Shown piece after piece: positions 52,257 through 60,924 of a stretch of DNA of 62,159 bases. Source of the stretch: Aporhodopirellula sallentina SM41 (lineage in GTDB: Bacteria; Planctomycetota; Planctomycetia; Pirellulales; Pirellulaceae). The translations under genes were made by a program, and so were the position numbers. The stretch lies in NCBI RefSeq assembly GCF_000346505.1, contig NZ_ANOH01000443.1, forward strand, positions 1 through 62,159, read 5' to 3'. The notes below the pieces were generated by a model. That model worked only from the letters and a program-made list of their open reading frames with translations, was not told where the DNA came from and made no database searches. Numbering within the stretch: position 1 is the first letter of the stretch; every line of letters begins with the position of its first letter.

Positions 52257-52922
52257 TCAGGGCCGCTCGCTATGGACCGGAAACACTTCATTCTCGGCGA
52301 TCGCCCACGCGAGATCGCCGGAGTTAATTTTAACGACGTGCGTGCCGGTGAATTGCCCGATCGCTGGCAACATCAACATGCGATTACGGTAGAAGAAACA
52401 GGGCAGCTTTCCGATCGCATCGCCTACCTTGACCGCCGGGTGGACATGCCCGCATAGCAGAACGCGTGCGTCCTCGGGCACCTCTTCCGGATGATGCGTC
52501 ATAACCAAGTCGTCAATTCGTTCAAACGGATCGACGATCTCAATCGGCCAGGACGATGGCAACTGTCCGACGTGAGCATCATGGTTGCCTCGCACGAGAA
52601 CCGTTGATAGGTCGATGAACGCAGAGAAGAAATCCTCGATCGATTCAACAACATCTCGCGATAACGATGACCGGGCATGAAACATGTCGCCCAAGATGAC
52701 CAACCGGGACACGCCTGTTTCACAGACGCGACGTTGAATCTTCTGCAGCGTTCCTTGCGTGCTGCCCATCGGCACGGGGATTCCGTGCCTTCGAAACGTT
52801 GCTTCTTTCCCGAAATGCGGGTCGGCAATGAAGAGGGTTTGGCGATCTGGCCACTCGACCGAACCGTCGCTATGCAAGCACACTTCAATCCCATTGAGTT
52901 TGATGCTTATCCGGTTCGCCAT
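52257..52922 (-). CDS. pdeM: Ligase-associated metallophosphoesterase (MPE/PdeM)
   Basis: Calcineurin-like phosphodiesterase of 221 residues that belongs to the DNA-ligase-associated repair module. Metal motifs in order: IADPHFGKE, ILGDMFHAR, VRGNHDAH, MTHHPEEV and CGHVHPAV. Related enzymes are Mn-dependent DNA phosphodiesterases. It is the last gene of the leftward cluster, 44 bases after the helicase. Confidence 0.95.
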   Translation of the reverse strand: MANRISIKLNGIEVCLHSDGSVEWPDRQTLFIADPHFGKEATFRRHGIPVPMGSTQGTLQKIQRRVCETGVSRLVILGDMFHARSSLSRDVVESIEDFFSAFIDLSTVLVRGNHDAHVGQLPSSWPIEIVDPFERIDDLVMTHHPEEVPEDARVLLCGHVHPAVKVGDAIGKLPCFFYRNRMLMLPAIGQFTGTHVVKINSGDLAWAIAENEVFPVHSERP

Positions 52923-52966
52923 ATTCGCTCCTTCTCAAGGTGTGTCCGCCGACGGCAATTTCCTCT

Positions 52967-55456
52967 CTAACCCGCCGTCTGATCAGCGGCTTTCTCTAGC
53001 TGTTGTTGCATGCGAGCGATACGCTCAGAGAGGGATTCACTGCTGACACGCTCTCGCAGTTTGTCGACCAACAGAGGAAACGCCAGAGGAGTGACCTTCG
53101 CCGGCTTTCTTGACAACAGTTCGCTGTTTTCGATCCGCAAAAAAGCGGTGGCGAGACGGGTTGATTCGAGTTGAAATTCCAACACCTCACGGCGAGCCTG
53201 TTCCAGCAAGAGATTCCCTGCGTCGTATTCTTGGAACACGTCAAAGAACAGATTGCTGCTCGCTTGCACGTGGCTGGTGCTTTTTCGTTGGCCAGGATAG
53301 CCGGGATGGATCAGGCCGGCGACGCGTGCGATTTGTCGAAATTGTCGCTTCGCCATTTCTGTCGAGTTCATACTGCTGAGGATGTCCCCCACGAGGTCTC
53401 CGGTTGCAAACACGCCTTCGTCAACCATTCGGTTTACTTCAACAGGATGGGGAGATTGCAGCACAACGCCATAGTCGTTGCACGCCATGCTGAACGTTGT
53501 CTTCTGCAGTTGCGAAATCCGATAGGCGAGCACCGCTGCCATTCCTTCATGCACGAGACGTCCCTCAAAAGGGAACACAAAGAGTTGATGACCGTTGCGA
53601 GTCTTGATTTGTTCGATCAACACCTGGTTCGTCAGCGGGAGAGCACTCCAGCGTTCCTGGATCTCAAACAATGGTTTCAACGCCCGCATCTCACGCCCGA
53701 CTAATTTCCCTTCGGCCGCCTCCTGTAACTTCAGTCGCAACTCCGCACTCAGTTCGCTCGACAACGGCATTCTGCCGCCCATCCAGCGTGGAACCGAATC
53801 GGGTTGTCCCTTGGCTCGTTTGACGTAGGCCACGTTGTCTTTGACCCGCACCAAGGAAACCAGTTTGCCTGCGAAAAGAAACCGCTCGCCTTCGTTCAGT
53901 TTGGAGAGGAAACTCTCTTCAACACTGCCGAGCGTGGCACCTTTGAGATACTTCACTTTCATCGATGCGTCCGAAACAATCGTTCCAATATTCATCCGGT
54001 GCATCGTCATCGTGCGACGTTGTTTGACAACATAAAGATCGCCGTCACGTTCAACCCGGTGAAAATCGGGATACGCCGAGAGCGAACTGCCTCCGTGAAC
54101 CACAAAGTCCAAAACCCACCGCCATTCGGCATCGGTGAGAGATTCGTAGGCTAGGCAAGAACGAACCTCCTCGAGCAACTCCTCCGAATCGAATCCGCCC
54201 CCGATCGCAACCGTGACAAGGTGCTGGGCAAGGACATCGAGTGGCTTGTTCATGAGCGGACGTGATTCGAGATGCCCTTTTCGAATTGCATCCTGTGCCG
54301 CGGCGAGTTCGATCAGTTCGATCGCGTTGGTCGGCACGAACGCCAAACGGCTTTCGGCGCCGGGTCGGTGCCCGCTGCGTCCGGCGCGTTGCAACAACCT
54401 CGCGGCCCCCTTGGGACTCCCGATTTGCAACACCAAATCAACAGCGGTGAAGTCGACACCGAGATCCAGACTGCTCGTACAAACAACCGCGTGCAACGTC
54501 CCGTCTTTCAACCCGTCTTCCACCCATCGTCGAACCGACGTGTCGAGCGATCCGTGATGCAACGCGATCTTGCCGGCCCAGTCGGGACGTTGCTTGAGTA
54601 GGTGTTGATACCAAATCTCCGTCTGGGAACGCGTGTTCGCGAACACCAGAGCACTCGTTACCTGTTCCAAACGCTCCGCAACCTGAGGAACCATCTTGGT
54701 CCCGATATGTCCCGACCACGGAAACCGATCGACCCGCGGCGGGATGATCGACTCCAACTTCATGCGTTTCTTTTTGTATCCTTCCACGATTCGTGCCGGA
54801 GTCGTCGGGGTCACGCCCAATAACGAATCGCGTGCCTCCTCGAGATTGCCCAGCGTGGCGGATAGTCCCCAGGTTCGCAAATGCGGATTCAGGCGACGCA
54901 GTCGAGCTAACGCCAACTCGGTTTGGATCCCTCGTTTTGTCCCGAGCAACTCGTGCCACTCGTCAACGATCACGGCTTCGACGCCCGCCAACTGAGGCAA
55001 TAACCGCTCGTGAGTCAGCATCAACGAGAGGCTTTCGGGCGTCGTGACCAATGCCGTCGGCAACCGCTTGAGCTGACGCGCCTTCGCACCTGCTTTGCTG
55101 TCCCCGGTCCGCGATTCCAAACTCCACGGCAATCCTAAACCGTCGAGCGGGCCACGCAGCGATGACTCCGTATCACCAGCGAGCGCACGCAAAGGGGTCA
55201 CCCACAACACACGAACCGATGGTGGACGTTTGGGGTTCCAACGGGATTGGTCCGAGTTTTGTTTTAGCCACGAGAGAATCGGCCCCATCCAGGCAGCGAG
55301 CGTCTTCCCGGTTCCGGTCGCGGAGTGAATCAATCCGCTTTCGCCCTTCTGGTACGATCGCCAAACCGAACGTTGAAAACGAAAGGGCTTCCATCCGATC
55401 GATTCGAAATAGGAATCAACTTGTTTGGATGGCGTGAGTGTTGGTGTGGAGTGCAT
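52967..55456 (-). CDS. Ligase-associated DEXH-box DNA helicase (Lhr type)
   Basis: Superfamily-2 ATPase/helicase of 829 residues. Walker A is HSATGTGKTLAAW, motif II DEWHE, motif III GLSATLGN, motif V/VI segments TSSLDLGVD and QRAGRSGHRPGA. The winged-helix and C-terminal regions fit bacterial Lhr proteins linked to ATP-dependent ligases; these are 3'-5' translocases that unwind RNA-DNA or DNA duplexes. Only 14 bases separate it from the ligase stop, so it is in one operon. The C-terminal 60 residues are divergent. Confidence 0.95.
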   Translation of the reverse strand: MHSTPTLTPSKQVDSYFESIGWKPFRFQRSVWRSYQKGESGLIHSATGTGKTLAAWMGPILSWLKQNSDQSRWNPKRPPSVRVLWVTPLRALAGDTESSLRGPLDGLGLPWSLESRTGDSKAGAKARQLKRLPTALVTTPESLSLMLTHERLLPQLAGVEAVIVDEWHELLGTKRGIQTELALARLRRLNPHLRTWGLSATLGNLEEARDSLLGVTPTTPARIVEGYKKKRMKLESIIPPRVDRFPWSGHIGTKMVPQVAERLEQVTSALVFANTRSQTEIWYQHLLKQRPDWAGKIALHHGSLDTSVRRWVEDGLKDGTLHAVVCTSSLDLGVDFTAVDLVLQIGSPKGAARLLQRAGRSGHRPGAESRLAFVPTNAIELIELAAAQDAIRKGHLESRPLMNKPLDVLAQHLVTVAIGGGFDSEELLEEVRSCLAYESLTDAEWRWVLDFVVHGGSSLSAYPDFHRVERDGDLYVVKQRRTMTMHRMNIGTIVSDASMKVKYLKGATLGSVEESFLSKLNEGERFLFAGKLVSLVRVKDNVAYVKRAKGQPDSVPRWMGGRMPLSSELSAELRLKLQEAAEGKLVGREMRALKPLFEIQERWSALPLTNQVLIEQIKTRNGHQLFVFPFEGRLVHEGMAAVLAYRISQLQKTTFSMACNDYGVVLQSPHPVEVNRMVDEGVFATGDLVGDILSSMNSTEMAKRQFRQIARVAGLIHPGYPGQRKSTSHVQASSNLFFDVFQEYDAGNLLLEQARREVLEFQLESTRLATAFLRIENSELLSRKPAKVTPLAFPLLVDKLRERVSSESLSERIARMQQQLEKAADQTAG

Positions 55457-55470
55457 GTTGCGACGAAATC

Positions 55471-57072
55471 CTATTCCTGATCGCCGAGCATCTCGAGCAA
55501 CTCGCTGAGCCGGTTGGCGTCCTCAGGTTGCTTGTCATGCCGCCAACGCAGGATGCGAGGGAACCGTGTCGCAACGCCACTCTTATGCCGTTTGGAACGC
55601 TGCAGTCCCTCGAACGCCAACTCCATCACCAACTTCGGCGTGACGCTGCGAACCGGGCCGAACGTGTCATGTGTGTTTTGCCTGACAAAGCGATCCACTT
55701 TTCGGATTTCCTGATCGTCCAATCCGCTGTACGCCTTCGCAAAGGGCACCAATTGATCTCCGTCCCACAAGGCAAACGTGTAGTCCGTAAACAAACTCGC
55801 TCGCCTGCCGTGGCCTTTCTGCGCGTAAATCAACACGGCATCAATCGTGAACGGTTTGACTTTCCATTTCCACCATGTTCCGCGAACGCGTCCGACATCG
55901 TACGTGGCGTCTTTGTGTTTGAGCATTAACCCTTCGGCGTTCATCTCTCGGCTTTTCTCACGAACTTTTGCGAGTTCGTCCCACGACATACCGCTGATCA
56001 ATTCGGTCACACGCAGGTGCGGATGATCGCAATCGGACAACAGTTTTTCGAGACGTCCCCGACGCTCGGCGAAAGGCTCTTCGCGCACGTCTTCCGCAGC
56101 ACACTCGAGAATGTCAAATGCGTGAAAGACAACGGGAACCTCAGTTAACAACTTCTTGCCCACCGTCTTACGGCCGATCCGCCGCTGCAACTGAGCGAAC
56201 GGTAGCACCGTGCCGTCACTTTGGGAGGCCAAGATTTCGCCGTCCAGGACCGTGCCATCGGGCAGAGACTCAGCGGCGGATTCGATCTCCGGCCATCGGT
56301 TTTCCATCAACTCCTCGCCCCGCGACCAGATAAACGTCTGCCCGGATCGGCGAATGACTTGCCCGCGGATTCCGTCCCATTTCCATTCTGCCTCGTAATT
56401 GCAGACGTCACCGATCGCCTGCGGTCCGTCCTCGACGTTGATCGGATGGGCTAAACAAAACGGATACGGTTGGCTCGCGAGCGTGTCTTGGACATTGGGG
56501 TCAACGAGACTTTCGAAAAAGCTCGGCGTCGGTTTCCAATTTCCCATCAAGCGGTGCGAAACCACGTCAGCCGAAACACCGGACTGCTGCGCGATCGCGC
56601 GAGTCACGAGCCGTTTGCTGACACCGACACGGAACGCGCCGGTGATCAATTTCATTACGACAAAACGGAGTTGTGCCGGCGTTTGATTCCAAATCTCAAC
56701 GACATGTTGCCGTTGGGCTTCTTCATCCATTTTGCGCAGGGGCTCCAACCGCTCGTTCACCCAAAACGCCAATGAGTCGTCGTCCTTGATGTCTCCCGGT
56801 GGAACGACCAACGACAAAGTCTCAGCCAAGTCGCCGACGGCATGGTATGACTCGTCAAACAACCACGAGGGAATGCCTGCTTCCTCGGCCGCCCATATCC
56901 TGAGAAGCTTCGTTGGAACGATCCGCCGCAGTTTGTTGCCACACAGAAAGTAGGTCGCCCACGCGGCATCACTCGACGAAGCGGATTCGAAGTACTTTGC
57001 CATCGCGGCAATTTTGACGTTCGTTTTCGTTGTCGAATCGAGGGCGTGATACAAATCGGCAAATCGGATCAT
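55471..57072 (-). CDS. ATP-dependent DNA ligase of the Lig-Exo-Lhr-MPE module
   Basis: ATP-dependent DNA ligase of 533 residues. K231 in EWKWDGIRGQ is the adenylated lysine (motif I); motif IV EGLMLKHKDA and motif V WWKWKV are present, as is the N-terminal alpha-helical DNA-binding domain (residues 1-205). The OB-fold ends near 533. It should seal nicks after processing by the partner nuclease. Its start overlaps the exonuclease stop by four bases. Confidence 0.95.
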   Translation of the reverse strand: MIRFADLYHALDSTTKTNVKIAAMAKYFESASSSDAAWATYFLCGNKLRRIVPTKLLRIWAAEEAGIPSWLFDESYHAVGDLAETLSLVVPPGDIKDDDSLAFWVNERLEPLRKMDEEAQRQHVVEIWNQTPAQLRFVVMKLITGAFRVGVSKRLVTRAIAQQSGVSADVVSHRLMGNWKPTPSFFESLVDPNVQDTLASQPYPFCLAHPINVEDGPQAIGDVCNYEAEWKWDGIRGQVIRRSGQTFIWSRGEELMENRWPEIESAAESLPDGTVLDGEILASQSDGTVLPFAQLQRRIGRKTVGKKLLTEVPVVFHAFDILECAAEDVREEPFAERRGRLEKLLSDCDHPHLRVTELISGMSWDELAKVREKSREMNAEGLMLKHKDATYDVGRVRGTWWKWKVKPFTIDAVLIYAQKGHGRRASLFTDYTFALWDGDQLVPFAKAYSGLDDQEIRKVDRFVRQNTHDTFGPVRSVTPKLVMELAFEGLQRSKRHKSGVATRFPRILRWRHDKQPEDANRLSELLEMLGDQE

Positions 57073-58118
57073 GAATCGTCCGCCCCATCTTCGCTCGGTG
57101 CGTCGTCGGAATCCTGCGAACGATCCTCGTCGCTTTCACTGCGGGACCGTGAATCGATCGCCACTGCGTCTCGACCATTTTCCTGCAGGTAACGCGCCAC
57201 CGCTGCGGTATAACCGTGGGTCACCCACACCGTATCCGGATCACACGAGCGAACCGCCTCGAGCAGTGACGGCCAATCGACGTGGTCGCTGACAATGAAT
57301 CCGCGGTCGACCGCACGTCGGCGACGGGCACCCCGCACCGCCATCCATCCGCTCGCCATCGCGGTGCTGACCTTTCCGAACCGACGCAACCACGGCGTTC
57401 CGTTCGCACTCGGCACGGCGACCACCATGCCTCCGGTGAAGTTGTGCTTTCGGTCGAGGTCACCGACGAACACCGTTTCAGGAAGTTTGACTCCGGTGCG
57501 CCGGTAAGCCTCGTTCCCTTTTTCGACCGCGCCGTGCGTGTAGATCGTGCCGATCGACGGATCGAGACCGGCGAGCAGTCGTTGACTCTTCCCAACGGCA
57601 TAACCATAGAGAACACAACACAGCCCAGCGTCGCGACTCTCTCGCCACCACTGATTGATTTGCCCAGAGGTGACTTCATCGGGTTCCCATCGATAAACAG
57701 GCAAACCGAACGTCGATTCAGTCACCAATAAATGACACGGAATTGGCTGCCACGATTCACAGGTTGGATCCGCACCGAGTTTGTAGTCGCCGGTTACGAC
57801 AACAACCTCGCCACGATACTCGAGCCGAACCTGCGCCGAACCGAGCATGTGGCCGGCGGGATGAAAACTAACGTCCACTCCACCGACGGTCACCGATTCC
57901 CCGTAGGGCATGAATTCAAACTCGGCGTCATCGTTCATTCGCATTCGCAGTAAATGCTCACTCGGCGAGGCCGCTAGATAGTGGCGACATCCCCAACGCG
58001 CGTGGTCGGTATGCGCATGCGTGACCACCGCCCGATTAACGGCAACGCGAGGGTCGACGTAGAAGTCGCCGACCGGACAGTACAGCCCGCGTTGAGTGGA
58101 TTGAAGCAGCGAAACCAT
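57069..58118 (-). CDS. Ligase-associated metallo-beta-lactamase exonuclease
   Basis: Nuclease of 349 residues of the beta-CASP/mRNA 3'-end-processing-factor-like group. The zinc motif is THAHTDHARWG, followed by HPAGHMLGSAQV and, later, VTGDYKLGADP. Related bacterial proteins (Exo) are 5'-3' exonucleases in the ligase module. The last 30 residues are an Asp/Ser/Glu-rich tail (SRSRSESDEDRSQDSDDAPSEDGADDS) not needed for the fold. ATGA overlap with the ligase. Confidence 0.93.
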   Translation of the reverse strand: MVSLLQSTQRGLYCPVGDFYVDPRVAVNRAVVTHAHTDHARWGCRHYLAASPSEHLLRMRMNDDAEFEFMPYGESVTVGGVDVSFHPAGHMLGSAQVRLEYRGEVVVVTGDYKLGADPTCESWQPIPCHLLVTESTFGLPVYRWEPDEVTSGQINQWWRESRDAGLCCVLYGYAVGKSQRLLAGLDPSIGTIYTHGAVEKGNEAYRRTGVKLPETVFVGDLDRKHNFTGGMVVAVPSANGTPWLRRFGKVSTAMASGWMAVRGARRRRAVDRGFIVSDHVDWPSLLEAVRSCDPDTVWVTHGYTAAVARYLQENGRDAVAIDSRSRSESDEDRSQDSDDAPSEDGADDS

Positions 58119-58220
58119 GAACCGAGATAAAAGAGAGGACGGAGGAAACAGCGTCTGCGATCGTTTGGACCCAACGCCGAACGGAAAACAACAAAACCAT
58201 CCTTGGCACTTTTTTGATAC

Positions 58221-59624
58221 TCAGGTGACCGCGGTCACGAGATCACTCACGAGATTTTCCGTCATCTGCGACTTCCGCGTCGGATCCGGCATTCTCAAAA
58301 TCGCTGCCGGGTGCCAGGTGGCGATCGTCCGTTGACACCATTCGGTCGGCTGCACGGATCCGCGTCCGGTCGTGATTCGAAAGTCGCGTCCGAAGAGGGC
58401 CTGAGCGGGAGTTGCCCCCAAACAAACCAACATCGTGGGCCCGATCGCCGCTAGCTCCGCTTCCAACCAAGGTCGACAAGCGAATATTTCTCTCGAGTCT
58501 GGCTTTTTGTGCAAACGACGTTTTCCTCGTTCAGTGAATTTGAAATGCTTGACCACGTTGGTGATGTAAATCTCGTCGCGCCGGATCCCAGCGATAGCGA
58601 GGCACTCGTCGAGCAATTGTCCGGCAGGCCCCATAAACGGCCTACCTTCTAAATCCTCACGATCGCCAGGCTGTTCCCCGACCAAAACAATCTTCGCGTC
58701 GCGTGGACCTTCGCCGAAAACCATTTGGTTTGCGAAGCGATGCAAATCACATGCCTGGCAGCATTCGGCTGCCACTTTCAGTGAAGCCAAGTCTGATTCA
58801 GCGGGCATGTAGTTCGTCGCGGTCTCGGCGAATCCTTCGTTCTTCTCAATCATTTCCGAAACACGTTGGGGTGCCTCGTCGAGCAGATCTTGAATCACGG
58901 ATGCTTCGGGAAGCGTCTTCCAATGACGCACCGGCATCTCGCGTTTCATTGCGTTGACTTTGACGCGAGCGGGATTGAAGATCGACGCGTAATAGGTCTT
59001 CCAGAGTTCTTCAAGAGAGTCTTCGTCCGACACCTCGCTCGCCGGAACTCCCGCGCCATATCGCAACTGCTTTTGATCCCAGACGACCGATTCCCAGGGC
59101 GTGAAGATCGACCAGTTCATCGCCTTGAAACGCCGGGCAAAGAACGGTGCCGCGAGCCGGACGATACGATGATCGGGGCGATGCCATGCCACATAAGTTT
59201 CTTCCGCGGCGGATCCGACGAGACGGAAACGCACGAACGCCTTCATTTTATGAACATCGCGAGTGACCGCTTTGCTCATCTGCTGCAACCGATGCACGTC
59301 ATCATCGGTTGCGATCTCGAGCAACGACGACTCGCCGTGCGTTAGCCGCCATAGCGTTCGATAGAGAAGTTCCCACCGGGCAGGACGTTGGTGACAGGCA
59401 ACAATTTTCGCCAGCTCTAAAAAAGACTTTGGCACCTTCGCGACTGCGTTTCGGACGTGGCTTTGATCCGTTGGGCTAGCCTGTGCGTCGTCACTGCCAA
59501 AGAGCGAAGGTTGATCGCTACGGGTCTCAAAATGCACATCCGTCGGAGGAACTTCGCGAGAGAGCAACTCTCTCGCTTGATCACGCCATTGGTCAAACGT
59601 TTCGATCGATAGAAATTGGTCCAT
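58221..59624 (-). CDS. DUF4130-UdgX uracil-DNA glycosylase fusion
   Basis: Two-domain protein of 467 residues. Residues 1 to about 235 are DUF4130 (HRP-RWELLYRTLWRLTHGE, FTPWESVVWDQKQLRYG); residues 285-467 are a UdgX-type glycosylase. The Fe-S cysteines start at AECCQAC (288-292); the active-site GEQPGDREDLEGRPF and the loop KRRLHKKP with H372 identify UdgX, which binds uracil-DNA covalently through that histidine; WHPAAILR is the C-terminal motif. The stop lies 102 bases before the exonuclease start, so the same transcript is likely. It probably feeds abasic or trapped-uracil lesions to the downstream module. Confidence 0.95.
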   Translation of the reverse strand: MDQFLSIETFDQWRDQARELLSREVPPTDVHFETRSDQPSLFGSDDAQASPTDQSHVRNAVAKVPKSFLELAKIVACHQRPARWELLYRTLWRLTHGESSLLEIATDDDVHRLQQMSKAVTRDVHKMKAFVRFRLVGSAAEETYVAWHRPDHRIVRLAAPFFARRFKAMNWSIFTPWESVVWDQKQLRYGAGVPASEVSDEDSLEELWKTYYASIFNPARVKVNAMKREMPVRHWKTLPEASVIQDLLDEAPQRVSEMIEKNEGFAETATNYMPAESDLASLKVAAECCQACDLHRFANQMVFGEGPRDAKIVLVGEQPGDREDLEGRPFMGPAGQLLDECLAIAGIRRDEIYITNVVKHFKFTERGKRRLHKKPDSREIFACRPWLEAELAAIGPTMLVCLGATPAQALFGRDFRITTGRGSVQPTEWCQRTIATWHPAAILRMPDPTRKSQMTENLVSDLVTAVT

Positions 59625-59671
59625 GTTCGCAGGATCTATGTTCGCAGTGCCATCGGGTCGTTCCCGATAGG

Positions 59672-60924
59672 CTAGACCTCACCCGTTACGGCTGAACCAG
59701 CGGCATCGAATAACATCAGTTGCTCGTTCTTGGTGGTCACTTTTGATTTTAAATCCAATCGATCCAGGTCGTGAACGCTCGGGTTGTGGTCCGCGGTCAA
59801 AACGAATGCCTTGGTGCGATTCCACGCGACACGCAACTTTCGCAAATCGGCGGCCCGCAGGTTCCGGTGCTTTCGAATCGAAAGGATCCGTTTGACGCTG
59901 CGAACACCAACGCCGGGGATTCGCAGCAACTCTTCGTAGCTAGCTCGATTGACATCGACAGGAAAGAAATGCCGATTCGCCAACGCCCACGCGAGTTTCG
60001 GGTCAATGTCGAGCGATAGGTTTCGGTCCTTTTCGGCGACAATCTCGTCCGCCTGGAAACCATAGAACCTCATCAACCAGTCAGCCTGGTACAACCGATG
60101 TTCGCGAATCAACGGAGGAGACTGTCCCGGCAGGCGGGCGTCCGCATGCGGGATCGGACTGTATGCGGAGTAGTACACCCGGCGGAGTTTCTGCTGCGAA
60201 TACAAATCCGATGCCGTCTTAAGCACATCCACATCGGGCGTCTCGGTCGCCCCGACGATCATTTGCGTACTCTGTCCAGCGGGCGCGAAACCGCGGGTCT
60301 TCAAACCGGCTTTCTTGTCGGCCGTGGTTTCCTCGATCTTCTCGCGAATACCGCCCATCGCGGCCACGATTTGAGGCTTTTTCTCTCCGGGGCCAGACGC
60401 ACCAGATCGCGGTCGGTTGGCAATTCGATGTTCACGCTCAACCGATCCGCCCACCGTCCGGCCTCATCGATCAGGTCCTGCGACGCGTTCGGAATCGTCT
60501 TGAGATGGATGTAGCCGCCGTAGTGCTCGTCGGTGCGGAGACGTTTGGCGACCGCTATCATTTGCTCCATCGTGTAGTCGGAATTTTGAATGATTCCGGA
60601 ACTCAGAAAGAGCCCTTCGATGTAGTTGCGTTTGTAGAACTGCATCGTCAACGAGACCACCTCGTCAACGGTGAATCTCGCCCGTGGCGTGTCGCTCGAA
60701 ACGCGATTCACGCAGTACTGGCAATCGTAAATGCAGTAGTTCGTCAGCAGGATTTTCAGCAACGACACGCACCGACCATCGGGCGTGTAGCTGTGACAGA
60801 TCCCCATCCCCTCGGTACTGCCGATCTGGCTACCTTCGCGGGTTTTCTTTGATCCGCTGCTGGCGCACGAAGCGTCGTATTTGGCGGCGTCGGCTAAAAC
60901 GGCTAGTTTTTCTTGAACGTTCAT
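59672..60924 (-). CDS. Putative DNA modification/repair radical SAM protein, apparent frameshift
   Basis: Radical-SAM protein of about 416 residues when repaired. The first frame (from 60924) has the cluster motif CIYDCQYC, LFLSSGI and SVNIELPTDRDLVRLAPE; the second (to 59672) continues KPQIVAAMGG, RRVYYSAYSP and a C-terminal helix-hairpin-helix (LLRIPGVGVRSVKRILSIRK). The phases part at 60378-60390, where the minus strand reads GGAGAGAAAAAGCC; one missing A or one extra AG would restore a single frame. TIGR03916 members sit beside UdgX genes as here. The stop is 47 bases before UdgX. It probably acts on DNA bases; chemistry unknown. Confidence 0.88.

Follow-up and report, generated by a model that had tools for sequence, protein, structure and literature searches.

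Architecture of the six-gene island

The window analysed here (the whole stretch of 62,159 nucleotides from Aporhodopirellula sallentina SM41) encodes a putative DNA-repair island of six genes, all on the minus strand. The ORF map and domain matches give the following features:

52257-60924, minus strand: six-gene island, in the order radical SAM, DUF4130-UdgX, Exo, Lig, Lhr, MPE
59672-60924, minus strand: radical-SAM gene, both parts together (TIGR03916, in two frames)
ORF 60301..60924, minus strand: radical-SAM N-terminal part (TIGR03916, CX3CX2C as CIYDCQYC), first frame
ORF 59672..60454, minus strand: radical-SAM C-terminal part (helix-hairpin-helix), second frame
60376..60391, minus strand: frameshift site between the radical-SAM parts, where an A-run is one base shorter than in R. 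rubra
58221..59624, minus strand: DUF4130-UdgX fusion gene, whole (TIGR03915 and TIGR03914)
58902..59603, minus strand: DUF4130 (TIGR03915) domain of the fusion
58236..58895, minus strand: UdgX domain of the fusion (TIGR03914; motifs GEQPG, GKRRLH, HPAAILR)
57069..58118, minus strand: Exo, ligase-associated exonuclease (TIGR04122, THAHTDH), with a 4-base overlap with Lig
55471..57072, minus strand: Lig, ATP-dependent DNA ligase (TIGR04120, KWDG)
52967..55456, minus strand: Lhr-Core type DEXH helicase (TIGR04121), without C-terminal extension
52257..52922, minus strand: MPE/PdeM metallophosphoesterase (TIGR04123)

Calculated from these coordinates, the gaps in gene order are 47, 102, −4, 14, and 44 bases; together with the NCBIfam matches, they reproduce exactly the six genes, order, common strand, and all five gaps given in an earlier note on this DNA. 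The matches exceed the curated cut-offs for MPE (188.4 bits, cut-off 150), Lhr (1082.7, cut-off 850), Lig (653.2, cut-off 400), and Exo (451.8, cut-off 325), and these four genes are contiguous and co-directional, as expected of the known module to which the note had assigned them. The fusion likewise exceeds the cut-offs of both its families (TIGR03915, 224.8 bits against 112.25; TIGR03914, 266.1 against 189.95). Promoter-like sites in the island number one against a shuffle mean of 3.2, and terminator-like sites 11 against a mean of 12.4; the scan against shuffles found no minus-strand terminator-like site in the gaps inside the island. In a motif scan all six window proteins carry the motifs expected for catalysis, and their activities are predicted on this basis. 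We take the motifs of the radical-SAM, Exo, MPE, Lhr, and Lig proteins to have their usual functional meaning.

Two reading frames in the radical-SAM gene

The radical-SAM protein, which the earlier note had read as one open gene, lies in two frames, with its halves in separate ORFs. The N-terminal half matches TIGR03916 positions 1–181 (316.9 bits) and the C-terminal half positions 177–401 (257.2 bits), each against a cut-off of 343.5; jointly they span positions 1–401 of 415, and we treated them as a split copy. The sole indel relative to the Rhodopirellula rubra gene is one base absent at codon 181, in an A-run. Differences from R. rubra fall mostly at the third codon position on both sides of this indel (57/71 before it and 138/177 after). 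A single-base indel between stretches that differ mainly at third positions suggests either a recent mutation or an assembly error; the genome assembly consists of 491 contigs. The frameshift is private to the window in the family survey, where the nine other copies above 343.5 bits lack an internal stop. Because these nine copies and all eight aligned copies are open, we set aside a programmed frameshift. The broken frame of the window's own copy counts against coupling of the two modules.

The motif scan identified the CX3CX2C motif as CIYDCQYC and a helix-hairpin-helix stretch as RIPGVGVRSV. The helix-hairpin-helix assignment is borne out at the level of this stretch; the Pfam HHH_3 match, at 25.5 bits, is just under its cut-off of 27. 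Three more invariant cysteines (C20, C43, and C52, numbered on the first row) precede CX3CX2C in 8/8 aligned radical-SAM proteins, and possibly form an auxiliary iron-sulphur site. The predicted fold is of low confidence (mean pLDDT 56).

The DUF4130-UdgX fusion

The UdgX domain of the window contains GEQPG (motif A), GKRRLH (R-loop), and HPAAILR (motif B). A GKRR[LI]H sequence is present in the window and in nine of 10 other loci scanned. In its R-loop, the linked UdgX of locus L047 (10346-11773) carries KQRLH in place of KRRLH and keeps the R107 and H109 equivalents. The whole fusion gave a predicted fold of low confidence (mean pLDDT 67). Its listed fold matches are nearly all UDG structures, and the top matches of the UdgX part are Mycobacterium smegmatis UdgX entries with 47–50% identity. 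A sequence search turned up no solved DUF4130 relative, and the low-confidence models yielded no DUF4130 fold. Elsewhere in the genome, away from the island, lies another gene of the UDG superfamily (G000:C256:20867-21307), an observation that counts against coupling.

The island UdgX shares GEQPG, KRRLH (KRRIH in M. smegmatis), and HPAAILR with M. smegmatis UdgX. It differs in being a C-terminal domain behind DUF4130, whereas the M. smegmatis protein appears, from structures of 202–215 residues, to have a single domain. According to PMC10359453 (in the portions available to us), UdgX bonds covalently to DNA via a histidine of its loop; the authors put forward RecA-dependent pathways or proteases as possible means of resolving the UdgX-DNA complexes.

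DUF4130-UdgX and the radical-SAM protein are known neighbours, as the earlier note stated; this is evident from a figure legend in PMC3765255 (Biol Direct 2013) and from the TIGRFAM family names. The radical SAM-DUF4130-UDG neighbourhood described there (TIGR03914/03915/03916) resembles the island in its adjacent domains and in joining DUF4130 with a UDG domain. It differs in its SOS/ImuB-C contexts and in calling the radical-SAM protein SplB-like, and the accessible part of that paper names no Lhr-Lig module.

The Lig-Exo-Lhr-MPE module

The Lhr protein is 829 aa long, and TIGR04121 spans residues 12–822. Pfam identifies the helicase domains, WH_Lhr, and DEAD_assoc, and no further domain. The window proteins contain THAHTDH in Exo; D-x-H, GNHD, and GH-x-H in MPE; Walker A and DEWH in Lhr; and KWDG in Lig. 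The corresponding Exo motif of locus L071 is SHAHTDH, which is why our Exo pattern missed that locus.

A nucleic-acid repair cluster of Lhr-Core, Lig, Exo, and MPE is attributed by later papers to Ejaz and Shuman 2018. The available portions of PMC10140301 describe the cluster, and those of PMC8301817 and PMC7437997 its Lhr and MPE parts; in PMC8301817, MPE is reported near blhr in 276/319 genomes. The island agrees with this cluster in having the four families above NCBIfam cut-offs, contiguous, on one strand, and with only the core of Lhr. It differs in that radical SAM and DUF4130-UdgX precede the module in the same run, an arrangement that goes unmentioned in the accessible text of these three papers. 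E. coli Lhr offers a second comparison: it is a uracil glycosylase via its own C-terminal domain, a pairing of Lhr core and uracil glycosylase like the one proposed here (PMC10953399, as far as its text was accessible). However, the E. coli glycosylase is an AlkZ-like C-terminal part, which the island Lhr lacks, and the island encodes UdgX separately.

Both modules are already known separately. Our literature search, whose reach did not extend to the Ejaz papers, found no paper joining them. The accessible part of PMC9611098 lists ligase-associated genes and a radical-SAM gene in one repair-gene table for two Sphingomonas strains, and does not link them.

Conservation of gene order in Pirellulaceae and Planctomycetota

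We surveyed 60 genomes of the family, that of the window included. TIGR03916 is present in 10 of these (nine above the cut-off and the window's split copy), and four further genomes contain only weak partial matches. TIGR04122 exceeds its cut-off in 13/60, and both families occur together in six. Four of these six genomes (that of the window, G013, G028, and G055) encode all six genes contiguously and co-directionally, in the order that the earlier note gives for the window. Radical SAM and Exo lie within 3 kb of each other in 4/6, for which the binomial chance is ∼1e-11, a figure that ignores relatedness. The note had counted a lack of co-occurrence in related genomes, together with separate transcripts, against its reading; in the survey the modules are conserved together and co-directional. 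The union is not obligatory, however: 4/10 radical-SAM genomes lack Exo (among them the same-genus G045, which has the radical-SAM module and no Exo above cut-off), and 7/13 Exo genomes lack radical SAM. The modules are apart in G011 and G053, and the G053 Exo locus shows only Lig and Exo.

Exo-bearing contigs in GTDB extend this distribution. Six of the best 80 of 572 Exo relatives encode the full ordered set: R. rubra, Aporhodopirellula aestuarii, K23_9 (matching G055), two Rhodopirellula MAGs, and one Rubripirellula MAG. Because of short flanks, absence at several other of the 80 loci is not always shown. Fifty source genomes of these best 80 were searched whole, and 28 contain TIGR03916. 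Among the top 16 of that list (L069-L086 without L074 and L082; Planctomycetota by name except L085), nine encode radical SAM, linked to Exo in 6/9. The other 34, from other groups, include 19 with radical SAM, which lies in the Exo flank in 2/19 (L144 and L145). Altogether, the identical six-gene order is found in nine distinct genomes (that of the window, G013, G028, G055 (= L071), L069, L070, L075, L078, and L079), and R. rubra CECT 8075 carries all six genes. Across the phylum (246 genomes, that of the window included), the five Planctomycetota outside the family with both Exo and radical SAM show no linkage; the modules are 548 kb apart in one and on different contigs of drafts in four. 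Each module is often found without the other in the family, phylum, and Bacteroidota surveys, which counts against coupling, as does the lack of linkage in these five genomes.

Flanks, junctions, and trees of the linked loci

Comparison of flanks of up to 5 kb (in the window, L047, and L070, one of the two flanks is shorter than 1.3 kb) indicates that 31/36 pairs of the nine six-gene loci share no coding sequence. Sharing is limited to the window with L069, L069 with L070 (on the upstream side alone), and L075, L078, and L079 with one another (three pairs); we therefore count five flanking contexts. The junction between UdgX and Exo, where the two modules meet, also varies. With starts assigned by script to the first ATG met on going upstream from the profile match, the gaps in L075, L078, and L079 are 6, −4, −4, −1, and 8–9 bases, so that the UdgX-Exo junction is itself a 4-base overlap. 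It is 40–81 bases in R. rubra, Aporhodopirellula, and K23_9, and a 1-base overlap in L145 (within G349, a member of a Sphingomonadales group of five described below).

Trees of Exo with Lig and of radical SAM with DUF4130-UdgX both group L075, L078, and L079, and both also group the window, R. rubra, and Aporhodopirellula. Two changes suffice for the linked rows on the Exo-Lig tree, and the AU test does not reject their forming one clade (p-AU 0.206); the modules may thus have been joined only once in Pirellulaceae. On the radical-SAM/UdgX tree (28 rows) the linked label needs five changes, two alphaproteobacterial rows included. The Exo-Lig data allow a possible single origin of the linkage, with later losses or relocations.

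Linkage in Sphingomonadales, plasmids, and Bacteroidota

Linkage recurs in a second phylum. Among 196 Sphingomonadales genomes, radical SAM is present in 82, Exo in 97, and both in 78; Lhr is present in 82/82 radical-SAM genomes. The modules lie within 10 kb of each other in 9/78 genomes with both, against an expectation of at most 0.74, and are 48 kb apart in one more. For comparison, Lhr and Exo, a published pair, are no more than 10 kb apart in 37/97 Sphingomonadales genomes. An Lhr tree covering 114 of the 115 genomes with Lhr places the nine linked genomes in about four lineages and requires five changes of state; at least four linkage events against 0.74 expected give a Poisson P of about 0.007.

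There are four arrangements. In a group of five, whose clade also includes one unlinked genome, radical SAM, UdgX, Exo, and Lig are co-directional, the Sphingopyxis-type run; Exo has no Lhr gene within 10 kb in this clade, which counts against coupling. In G483 the modules are divergent and 214 bases apart. In G391 and G537, Lhr, an aspartic-protease-like gene, radical SAM, and UdgX are co-directional, and divergent from Exo. In G507 the modules are 9.6 kb apart.

A relative of the radical-SAM gene is encoded on 158 of 72,556 plasmid records. Of six plasmid regions examined, those of two Phaeobacter plasmids (L233 and L234) contain both modules ∼4.2 kb apart, with three other genes, including a topoisomerase IB, between radical SAM-UdgX and Exo-Lig. 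Two others contain radical SAM-UdgX, with Exo absent within 6 kb, and two contain Exo, Lig, Lhr, and PdeM, with radical SAM absent within 7–8 kb.

In Bacteroidota (218 genomes), radical SAM is present in 68, Exo in 42, and both in 24. None of these 24 shows linkage, a further observation against coupling; the modules share a contig in 8/24, at the nearest 84 kb apart. Within 1.5 kb flanks of the best 20 of the 68 radical-SAM loci, DUF4130 is matched in 18 and UdgX in none. Among the loci examined, linkage thus occurs only where DUF4130 carries UdgX, a contrast that is confounded with phylogeny.

Raw co-occurrence in Sphingomonadales is strong (78 genomes with both, four with radical SAM only, 19 with Exo only, and 95 with neither; Fisher 8e-31) and persists within Lhr-bearing genomes (p 3e-6). 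We nonetheless rejected it as evidence of dependence, since an independent-pairs test on the Lhr tree is not significant. Of 15 pairs differing in radical SAM, Exo changes in step in 4.9 and in the opposite sense in 0.8 (median p 0.22); for pairs differing in Exo, radical SAM follows in 4.0 and opposes in 1.3 of 10 (median p 0.38). The case for coupling therefore rests on gene order.

A putative capture-to-reseal pathway

With a probability of roughly 0.4, we read the island as a genuine six-gene putative repair operon of Rhodopirellula-type Pirellulaceae that combines two usually separate modules in one capture-to-reseal pathway. That the modules are functionally tied in some manner is very probable. 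The proposed hand-off from UdgX to the nuclease module is a tentative step, to which we give slightly less than even odds. Gene content, order, shared direction, junction overlaps, motifs, and recurrent linkage are observed; in favour of the reading we also count the UdgX fold matches, the presence of Lhr in every Sphingomonadales genome with radical SAM, the glycosylase domain of E. coli Lhr, and the suggestion by the UdgX authors that its DNA complexes may be resolved. We infer the substrate, order of action, and physical hand-off as follows. The radical-SAM protein, with DUF4130, would act on or recognise an altered pyrimidine. UdgX would then remove uracil or the altered base and stay covalently on the sugar through the KRRxH histidine. 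Lhr-Core may load on nearby single strand and unwind, after which MPE would cut, and Exo degrade, the strand bearing the UdgX-DNA adduct. Finally, a host polymerase would fill in and Lig would seal. With the adduct on the strand that MPE and Exo attack, the nuclease module would be a removal service for UdgX's DNA-protein crosslink.

A more specific version seems doubtful to us: that Lhr-Core, having no E. coli-type glycosylase tail, recruits UdgX in trans as a one-shot covalent lesion flag, that Exo/MPE and the ligase excise and reseal, and that uracil-type or radical-SAM-processed bases are the cluster's target. If true, capture, unwinding, excision, and sealing would all be encoded within the island as one self-contained pathway. 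More broadly, a uracil-capturing protein and its partner are encoded in or next to the run of a kit for cutting, unwinding, and sealing DNA, in a group of planctomycetes and, separately, in some alphaproteobacteria; this placement hints at the damage that the kit may repair. Both modules are orphans. The role and targeted damage of the LigB-Lhr-phosphodiesterase-nuclease operon are not currently known according to PMC10140301, and the precise physiological role of UdgX is largely unknown according to PMC10359453 (both in the parts accessible to us). A conserved common gene run turns these two questions into one testable pathway.

The modules may instead share only a regulon, a serious possibility that we nevertheless hold to be short of probable. 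They would be co-expressed after DNA damage and act in parallel on different lesions with no biochemical hand-off, radical SAM-DUF4130-UdgX on altered bases and Lig-Exo-Lhr-MPE on crosslinks or breaks. Such independence would suit the frequent separation of the modules where both occur (69/78 Sphingomonadales not within 10 kb and 24/24 Bacteroidota) and the spacing on the Phaeobacter plasmids. It sits less well with junction overlaps in two phyla, and with four arrangements in one order, one of which pairs radical SAM with Lhr rather than Exo.

It is improbable that UdgX serves as a shield that caps abasic sites against cutting, with the nuclease module acting after replication or proteolysis exposes the cap. 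The UdgX authors do suggest that it guards AP sites against fragmentation (PMC10359453, available in part), but a shield by itself does not explain nucleases in UdgX's operon. More improbable still is an adjacency that arose by chance or hitch-hiking and was then inherited within a single clade of Pirellulaceae: the two changes on the Exo-Lig tree (with one clade not rejected) fit it, with five needed on the radical-SAM/UdgX tree, but the six genes stay together as their flanks are reshuffled, and linkage arose separately in Sphingomonadales well beyond the number expected. On these two grounds we rejected it. A role in defence against phages or plasmids whose DNA contains uracil or hypermodified bases has very little to recommend it, since beside the patchy distribution and the plasmid-borne relatives, PADLOC has no model for 5/6 of the island proteins scanned and matched no recognised set; Lhr matches 39 of its models (helicase components in the 25 listed), never as part of such a set.

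Additional observations at related loci

Locus L064 (13894-15444; G036, same family) encodes an Lhr gene broken near residue 738 by an insert of ∼1.6 kb. By eye, the insert contains two ORFs resembling an IS3-type transposase pair. The gene between Lhr and radical SAM in G391 and G537 (L237 9731-10855 and the matching stretch of L238) is co-directional with both neighbours, and its translation, which has a signal-like start, resembles by eye an aspartic protease of the retropepsin type. In Phyllobacterium (L235), the annotation likewise places an aspartic protease (TIGR02281) next to Lig.
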